DNA from: Pectinatus brassicae | GTDB lineage: Bacteria > Bacillota > Negativicutes > Selenomonadales > Selenomonadaceae | Reading direction: 5' to 3' | Assembly: GCF_014201835.1 (NCBI RefSeq) | Contig: NZ_JACHFH010000014.1 | Location: forward strand, 1 to 64,000 | Length of the DNA stretch: 64,000 nucleotides | In this document: positions 35 to 63,655 of the stretch, in pieces | How positions within the stretch are numbered: the first letter of the stretch is position 1 | Layout: each line of letters begins with the position of its first letter | Notes under the pieces: model-generated | What the model was told of the DNA's origin: nothing | The model's input: only the letters and a program-made list of their open reading frames with translations | The model's database searches: none | Translations under genes and position numbers: made by a program

Positions 35-153
35 TAACATATATAAGAACCGTAGGAACTACGGGGATAGCCTGTGGAGATAATGTAAGACGTGAATTTT
101 GCGCAACTATCTGTGAAACAGGAACCCCGCGACTTTAGTCGTGGGAGGTTCAG
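35..153 (+). ncRNA. omega-RNA (reRNA) scaffold of the tnpB element
   Basis: TnpB guide RNAs are transcribed from the 3' part of tnpB to the element's right end, and the guide is the flanking DNA just outside. Here the region between the tnpB stop and the right-end hairpin has no ORF and contains paired segments (for example CCGTAGGAACTACGG at 51-65, and the 126-145 hairpin). The bases right after 153 would be the guide. They fall in the gene next door. RNA boundaries are inferred from family knowledge. Confidence 0.55.
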
Positions 154-183
154 AAGGGCTATGATGATTACTTTTCCGCTTAC

Positions 184-54520: not shown

Positions 54521-54546
54521 AACAGCTTATAGTTATAAGCTGTTTT
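54521..54546. terminator. Terminator shared by nupC and the Crp/Fnr gene
   Basis: AACAGCTTAT (54521-54530) pairs with ATAAGCTGTT around AGTT, with T-rich DNA on both outer sides. The stem covers the stop codon of the convergent regulator gene. Confidence 0.75.
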
Positions 54547-55198
54547 GCAGAAAAATTTGTAAATTAGCGAATTGTATTGATGTAATATATATTTTGCCAT
54601 GAAACAATGATAAGCAGTCTGCTGCTTTAAATTTAGCCAGACAGCGATTAACTGTTTTGACACTGGTACCAAGCTCGTCAGCAATCTGCTGGCGTCGTTT
54701 ATTTAAATAAAAGAAGCCGTTATCTTGTGGTGCTTGATAGTGACGCAATAGGTAGTGCAGTAATTTTTCTTTGCTGGACATAAATTTTATTGTGCCATTT
54801 TCATTAGAAGTAGGATACATTTTTTTGGCGACGAGATGCGCCATTAATACAGCAAAAGATGAATCATGTTCTAACCATAATAGGAAGGTATTATTATCCA
54901 TATAAAGAACAGAACAAGTGGTAAGTGCCTGCACAGTGGCAGCATAATTTTTTTGTACGGCTAAGCATTCAACTTCACCAATAAAACTGGGAGATTTGCA
55001 TTGAGCAAAGGTAAAACGCTGACCGTTAATGAACTCATTGCTGACAGTTACTGTTCCATCGAGCAGGAGGTATACACGATTGGCAGTATAACCTTTTATG
55101 ACAATATCTTCGCCGGCAGCAATATGTTTTTCTATCATTTTAGTACGTAAAAATTGCGGAATTGTAGGAATCGCATCCAGATCGCTGATAATAGCCAT
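54533..55198 (-). CDS. Crp/Fnr-family regulator, YeiL-like
   Basis: N-terminal cyclic-nucleotide-binding fold ([32 protein letters not shown]), dimer helix, and C-terminal HTH ([23 protein letters not shown]). No Cys cluster for an Fe-S Fnr. YeiL of enterobacteria is the nearest I recall, and it also neighbours nucleoside genes. It splits the salvage cluster and is divergent from deoD. Odd: AAAGGAG abuts the ATG at 55198 with no spacer, so initiation may be at another codon. Confidence 0.85.
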
Positions 55199-62614: not shown

Positions 62615-63388
62615 TTAAACCATAATAACAGGCTGTTGATTTTTAAAATATACAGGAATTAAACCGGCTTCCTTTAAAAAGCAAACAGCATCCATAAATT
62701 TATAGCCAATGGCAGATTCAACATGGGCATCAGAGCCAATGGTGGCATATTGTCCGCCCATATCATGATAACGCTTATAAATAGGCAAAAGATGTTTAGG
62801 ATTTATGTTATTGTCAAAGCGACGTGTATTTATTTCGGGGATAATATTATTATCTAAGGCACATTGCCATAGTTTGTCTATTTGCTGGGAAAATTCATCA
62901 TAATAAAGATGAACATCATTATAAGGAGCTTTGCGGCAGATATAATCAATATGACCTAAAACATTGCCGAAAGAGTGCAAGTTCATTCCTTTTATAAGTG
63001 CTTCTAAATAAATACGATAAGCTGTTTGCTTATCTTTATTTTGATAATAATCATTATAATATAAATCATAATTTTCCAGGATATGCTGGGAGATTATTAT
63101 CATATCAAAAGGCTGGTTAACGGCAAATTGCTGGCTTTGCTCAGCGGTAGTATCCTGCATGCCAATTTCTACGCCCAGTAAAACATTCTCATTATCACGA
63201 TATTTTTTATAAGCAGAGAAATATTTTTGGCAGTCGAATTCGTATATATCATCACCGGGAAAATAAAAATCAATATGATCAGTGATTGTAATGCCGATAT
63301 TTTGCTGTTTGGCAGCGGTAATAGCGGCTGTTAGCATCATATCAGAATCGGCAGAAAATGCTGTATGTATATGGCAGTCAAAAAAAAT
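62615..63388 (-). CDS. PHP-domain phosphoesterase (histidinol-phosphatase-like), ATT start proposed
   Basis: Metal-dependent PHP hydrolase. The first ATG (63340) would drop the essential N-terminal motif, yet the frame continues upstream as FFDCHIHTAFSADSDMM, carrying the HxH metal ligands. A perfect AAGGAGGT lies 8 bases before ATT 63388, so I propose ATT initiation (257 residues). Further motifs: ITDHIDF, GVEIGMQ, NVLGHIDYICR, PEINTRR and IGSDAH. No other his genes are nearby; the substrate could be histidinol phosphate or another phosphoester. Confidence 0.8.
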   Translation of the reverse strand: MFFDCHIHTAFSADSDMMLTAAITAAKQQNIGITITDHIDFYFPGDDIYEFDCQKYFSAYKKYRDNENVLLGVEIGMQDTTAEQSQQFAVNQPFDMIIISQHILENYDLYYNDYYQNKDKQTAYRIYLEALIKGMNLHSFGNVLGHIDYICRKAPYNDVHLYYDEFSQQIDKLWQCALDNNIIPEINTRRFDNNINPKHLLPIYKRYHDMGGQYATIGSDAHVESAIGYKFMDAVCFLKEAGLIPVYFKNQQPVIMV

Positions 63389-63403
63389 ATTAATTACCTC
63401 CTT

Positions 63404-63655
63404 TTAGTTGGCGGTAGCTTCAATAAGGGCTTTGGCCAGCTGGTCAGGACAGGAAGTATTTTTACTGCCGCATTTTATACCGCTGAATTTATCAATAACA
63501 GTTTTAATATCCATGCCGTCAGTTATATTGCAGATGCCTTTTAAATTACCATCACAGCCCCCGATGAAAGATACATTTTTAACAGTACTGCCATCTAATT
63601 CAAAGTTAATTTGTTTGGAGCAAGTGCCGGATGTTTTATAAGAAAAATTGTTCAT
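63404..63655 (-). CDS. TSCPD domain-containing protein
   Basis: Start ATG 63655, after GGAGAC. The 83-residue protein has SGTCSKQINFELDG, FIGGCDGNLKGI and the closing TSCPDQLAKAL that names the family (a ribonucleotide-reductase-associated C-terminal domain, here free-standing, as in the TIGR03905-type proteins). Four cysteines are conserved and may bind zinc. Its stop overlaps the ribosome site of the PHP gene, so the two are co-translated. Confidence 0.85.
   Translation of the reverse strand: MNNFSYKTSGTCSKQINFELDGSTVKNVSFIGGCDGNLKGICNITDGMDIKTVIDKFSGIKCGSKNTSCPDQLAKALIEATAN

Follow-up and report, generated by a model that had tools for sequence, protein, structure and literature searches.

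Where does translation begin when the metal-binding motif of an enzyme is encoded upstream of the first ATG of its reading frame? This question is raised by a gene for a PHP-domain (HisJ-family) phosphoesterase of Pectinatus brassicae, a member of a genus of beer-spoilage bacteria, which lies in a 64,000-nucleotide stretch of genomic DNA (hereafter the window).

A phosphoesterase frame with no standard start before its HxH motif

Counted from an ATT at 63388, the gene covers positions 62615..63388 of the minus strand (257 codons plus stop). Its frame reads TAA AAG GAG GTA ATT AAT, then ATT TTT TTT GAC TGC CAT ATA CAT, followed by eight further residues and ATG ATG. The HxH motif (CAT ATA CAT, 63365..63373, minus strand), which we take to provide two metal ligands of the PHP enzyme, is encoded 5′ of the first in-frame ATG (63338..63340, minus strand; residue 17), and the window frame contains no ATG, GTG or TTG between the in-frame TAA and the motif, both as the original prediction had described. 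The candidate start codon is the ATT at 63386..63388. It is preceded on the same strand by a Shine-Dalgarno (SD) sequence, AAGGAGGT, at 63396..63403, which lies 7 nt from the ATT if measured from its final T, or 8 nt counted from its last G. The pairing energy is -16.2 kcal/mol under the simple stacking model used for all SDs here, which assumes a canonical anti-SD. The spacing of 8, correctly given in the original prediction, is also the most frequent one among 156 ATG genes of the window genome (36/156).

The protein had been called a PHP phosphoesterase from the letters alone, and profile searches agree. Pfam PHP (PF02811) matches residues 4-188 (1e-21; 78.4 bits vs. a cut-off of 26.4), and the score against TIGR01856 (hisJ_fam) is above the curated threshold (94.3 vs. 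90.2 bits); the G002 orthologue, at 80.9 bits, is below it. The window protein does not reach the cut-off of NF004086, the histidinol phosphate phosphatase equivalog (PRK05588; 274.1 vs. 321 bits). The solved histidinol phosphatase 4gc3 aligns with it from residue 3, HxH included (2.3e-29), and H6 and H8 are invariant in an alignment of six sequences. Further HisJ-like paralogues are encoded in each genus genome, those of the window genome scoring 85 bits (G000:C20, below the cut-off) and a weaker 35 bits (G000:C2). Each genus genome also has at least one hisD. Beside the hisD at 2058-3329 of L113 (G000:C12), no other his gene was recognisable by eye among the listed ORFs.

The upstream neighbour is a TSCPD-domain gene (63404..63655, minus strand, with ATG 63655 taken as its start), whose product matches PF12637 (3.7e-28) and TIGR03905 (5.2e-33) and whose stop lies 15 nt before the ATT. 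A TSCPD-like ORF is found directly upstream in 5/5 genus members and in L007, and a shared transcript is probable. In the two species with tightly spaced genes (15 and 16 nt), re-initiation may contribute, but it is unlikely as a general explanation.

ATT or ATC at the aligned codon throughout the genus

The protein was sought in 60 genomes including its own (53 with a match), in 189 genomes of the family (177 with a match; 20 loci from this search, L163-L182, were added to those already read) and in five genus genomes, own included, which are all those examined for Pectinatus. An alignment-based profile search of the contigs of named species gave 51 loci. The genus loci (L002-L006) include Pectinatus cerevisiiphilus, P. 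frisingensis and P. haikarae (L003-L005; L051-L053 are the same stretches and were counted once). The aligned codon is ATT in four of the five genus genomes and ATC in the fifth. The 65 outgroup orthologues, one per genome, span 26 further genera within the family and 16 beyond it, and represent the better-scoring matches rather than all; 63 of them have ATG or TTG at this codon and the other two (L023, L025) have ATG one codon away. These counts exclude the matches in G034 (truncated at the end of its contig), G036 and G056, as well as weaker paralogue matches. All 48 named outgroup loci, partly from the same genomes, have a standard start no more than nine codons before the motif, and ATG is present in both members read (L007, L163) of the nearest genus by score (g7).

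By this comparison, the standard start at the aligned codon in the outgroups marks where initiation belongs. Because the outgroups, including the nearest genus, have a standard start, we assign the switch from ATG to ATT or ATC to the Pectinatus lineage. Proteins of the genus are 59-76% identical in pairwise comparisons and 54-70% of 4-fold sites differ; the presence of ATT or ATC in 5/5 genomes at such distances argues that the codon is neither a read error nor a sign of recent decay, and the odd codon is best seen as having outlasted much divergence. L003, L005 and L006 carry a second ATT immediately before the aligned codon (spacing 5), which leaves the exact start ambiguous in these three: translation could begin one codon earlier there, in which case all five genes could use AUU.

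The substitution pattern bears on whether translation extends 5′ of the first ATG. Across the ten species pairs, codons 2-16 were identical in 72 comparisons and differed synonymously in 49 and nonsynonymously in 29, which gives a nonsynonymous fraction of 0.19 compared to 0.37 for the remaining gene. In the eight codons before the ATT, 50/80 comparisons were nonsynonymous. The change of pattern at the ATT, from this looseness before it to constraint after it, places the coding boundary there and indicates that the codons between the ATT and the first ATG are translated.

The SD is spaced exactly 8 nt from the ATT or ATC in all five genus members, with energies of -16.2, -8.6, -14.1, -8.6 and -13.0 kcal/mol, respectively, in L002-L006. 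An SD at least as strong as that of the window was seen for 8 of the 402 genes sampled in the survey described below; the survey median was -9.9, and the SDs of L003 and L005 (-8.6) are weaker than this. Twenty-five outgroup orthologues with standard starts have SDs of -3.3 to -14.2, overlapping the genus range of -8.6 to -16.2. Because the two ranges overlap and two SDs are below the median, compensation of the weak codon by the SD is not demonstrated for the genus. Predicted RNA folds of the five start regions (70 nt, -5.5 to -10.0 kcal/mol) showed no alike structure by eye.

Other starts and other readings

One alternative was invisible from the window alone: an in-frame GTG, three codons ahead of the aligned codon, occurs in four of the five genus genomes. 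This GTG could be the ancestral Pectinatus start, turned into the GTA of the window by mutation or base error. We consider this improbable, since the GTG of the relatives is itself part of the SD (AAGGAAGTG, AAAGGGGTG, GAGAGGTG), too close for a likely start. The best SDs 5′ of the GTG in these four relatives have energies of -2.4, -2.1, -5.6 and -3.0 kcal/mol at spacings of 3, 11, 3 and 12 (spacings <3 were unscored), compared to -8.6, -14.1, -8.6 and -13.0 kcal/mol at spacing 8 for the ATT or ATC of the same genomes. Moreover, at least five outgroup orthologues (L065, L122, L163, L173 and L174) have an in-frame GTG at the same place in addition to a standard start at the aligned codon, and the residues between GTG and ATT are variable.

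Still less probable is an error in the window sequence, or decay of the gene in that genome. The original prediction had kept an error as its alternative and proposed reading the codon in close relatives, where an ATG or TTG would have spoken for a mistake; the genus-wide ATT or ATC found instead effectively excludes it. A run of eight Ts (63380..63387, minus strand) does adjoin the start codon, directly after its A, but ATT or ATC is also present in the other four genomes of the genus, which lack the homopolymer and read ATTTTATT or ATCTTATT in its place, and no stop occurs inside the gene in the five species, the frame being open in all. Nor would a miscounted run yield a standard in-frame start, as the original prediction had also argued: with 6, 7, 9 or 10 Ts the upstream frame, judged by eye, gives ATA or TAT and before long a TAA.

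A start at the internal ATG, giving a protein that lacks HxH, is hardly credible. This Met17 codon is invariant in six aligned proteins and has a moderate SD (-6.6, spacing 10) before it in three relatives. However, a start here would remove the two presumed metal ligands, its SD (-4.5 in the window genome, -4.5 to -6.6 in the other four) is weaker than that of the ATT in all five, and the codons 5′ of it are under purifying selection. A fusion to the upstream TSCPD protein, by readthrough of its stop codon or by frameshift or slippage on the T run, is equally far-fetched: the TAA of the TSCPD gene shares the phosphoesterase frame in the window, but across the five species the end of the TSCPD-like ORF lies at distances of 15, 40, 44, 41 and 16 nt, in frame in the first only. 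Because the frames differ between species, readthrough is excluded as a shared mechanism, and the T run is not conserved.

To place the ATT start in its genomic context, the window plus 400 kb was surveyed. The sample, 464 kb or 16% of the genome with infC outside it, contains 408 non-overlapping ORFs that are ≥100 codons long. This gave 146 places where an SD and a codon occur without a good standard start nearby. In 31 of them the codon lies ≤30 codons from the ORF opening and ≥8 codons before the first standard start, behind an SD of -8 or stronger. The phosphoesterase site is the strongest of these 31, and none of the others has an ATN codon (an AGG, at -8.8, is among them); two of the 146 places, inside another ORF, are slightly stronger (-16.5). 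No enrichment of ATT behind SDs was seen in the survey (9/146, with TTT at 10). The ATT start therefore looks gene-specific, and a genome-wide relaxation of start choice, which we had considered, was rejected on the same grounds, ATT behind SDs not being enriched over other codons.

Two further observations concern other parts of this DNA. A gene for a Crp/Fnr-like regulator (54533-55198, minus strand; cNMP_binding and HTH_Crp_2 domains) has an ATG that overlaps its SD (AAAGGAGATG) and an ATC 8 nt after the SD. In its orthologues in L157 and L158 an ATG lies close to the aligned N-terminus, and the true start of the window gene is uncertain. An SD-like string, GTCGTGGGAGGTTCAG, is common to the window (~137-156, plus strand) and L106 (~79-98, plus strand), in both cases upstream of ORFs near left contig ends, and is perhaps a repeated leader or gene.

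Probable initiation at AUU and its likely consequences

We estimate at about 0.9 the probability that the gene encodes a functional PHP phosphoesterase of the HisJ type whose start codon is AUU, one species having AUC at the aligned place. The identity of the codon, its conservation, the SD and its spacing are established directly, as is, through the substitution pattern, translation of the HxH stretch. As expected of a near-cognate start assisted by an SD, there is no usable standard start for the conserved N-terminus (L004 also has a TTG ten codons ahead of the motif's D), the SD is properly spaced and the arrangement is conserved between species. The best reading is that initiation at AUU or AUC would be weak and driven by the SD, and it is probably sensitive to IF3.

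In the mechanism that we propose, the SD, at its optimal spacing of 8 nt, would hold the 30S subunit, and formyl-Met initiator tRNA would be set on AUU, a near-cognate codon that mismatches the CAU anticodon at its third base. The protein should begin with Met and not Ile. The weak codon should yield much less enzyme than AUG would, and AUU initiation should be sensitive to IF3, as it is for infC. We infer the usage of the initiator tRNA, the low expression and the IF3 sensitivity from known systems.

The most familiar of these is infC, whose start is ATT in all five genus genomes (L046, L047, L042, L049 and L040), with an SD spacing of 9. In the other infC loci of the class, the aligned codon is ATT in 11, ATA in 2 and ATC in 1 (14/14 read). 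Because IF3 has both domains and infC starts at ATT, ordinary IF3 discrimination is to be expected. As in the phosphoesterase gene, the start of infC is an Ile codon behind an SD. However, infC encodes the discriminating factor itself and is autoregulated, while the PHP gene would be a target only, and, of the genera read, only Pectinatus shows the odd start of the latter. Outside infC, an AUU start is reportedly used by E. coli pcnB, the translation of which is said to be limited; pcnB encodes the poly(A) polymerase of a proteobacterium, unlike the phosphoesterase.

Other parallels come from published reports. The pncA gene of Borrelia burgdorferi (BBE22) also encodes a metabolic enzyme, from which the annotated start removes catalytic residues that AUU restores; it differs in enzyme and phylum, and its AUU has experimental support (PMC13398362). 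The cvfC1 (AUU) and ccpN (AUA) genes of Staphylococcus aureus resemble ours in having a conserved non-canonical start and an extended SD, but encode a small zinc-finger-like protein and a repressor, and their starts, which give ~10% of AUG output in poor medium, were shown by ribosome profiling and reporters (PMC13009471). Like the start described here, that of Streptomyces sigR is non-canonical genus-wide, but it is GTC, the product is a sigma factor, and repression by IF3 was shown with mutants (PMC5472188). Excess IF3 is described as inhibiting initiation at non-canonical codons (PMC2268962). By analogy to these genes and infC, output from the phosphoesterase start should be low (the S. aureus reporters gave ~10% of AUG in poor medium) and dependent on IF3.

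How rare such a start may be is suggested by a survey of 36 genome triplets, in which a single AUG-to-AUU switch is given for 61,358 reconstructed ancestral AUG starts; counts of this kind depend on annotation that seldom allows AUU (PMC5622118). Judged by the comparisons made here, the AUU/AUC start is real and genus-wide, lies in a probable metabolic gene, and adds a new gene to a rare and sparsely documented start type. Among the titles listed for Pectinatus, for histidinol phosphatase and PHP proteins, and for AUU and non-canonical starts, none concerned this start, though a report elsewhere is possible.

Third-position G is rare (137/1,270, or 11%), so that the lack of ATG in five lineages does not on its own prove that a weak codon is selected, and with five genomes such selection would be inseparable from mere tolerance. 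Fixed in the genus beside AUG orthologues, the switch provides a natural experiment on the possible selection of weak starts. We would expect gene finders that accept only ATG, GTG and TTG probably to truncate the enzyme or to set its start at the SD-embedded GTG. More tentatively, the HisJ-like phosphatase of Pectinatus may be under IF3 control, with the AUU or AUC start making its output follow free IF3 and ribosome status; if true, IF3 would regulate metabolism beyond its own gene.
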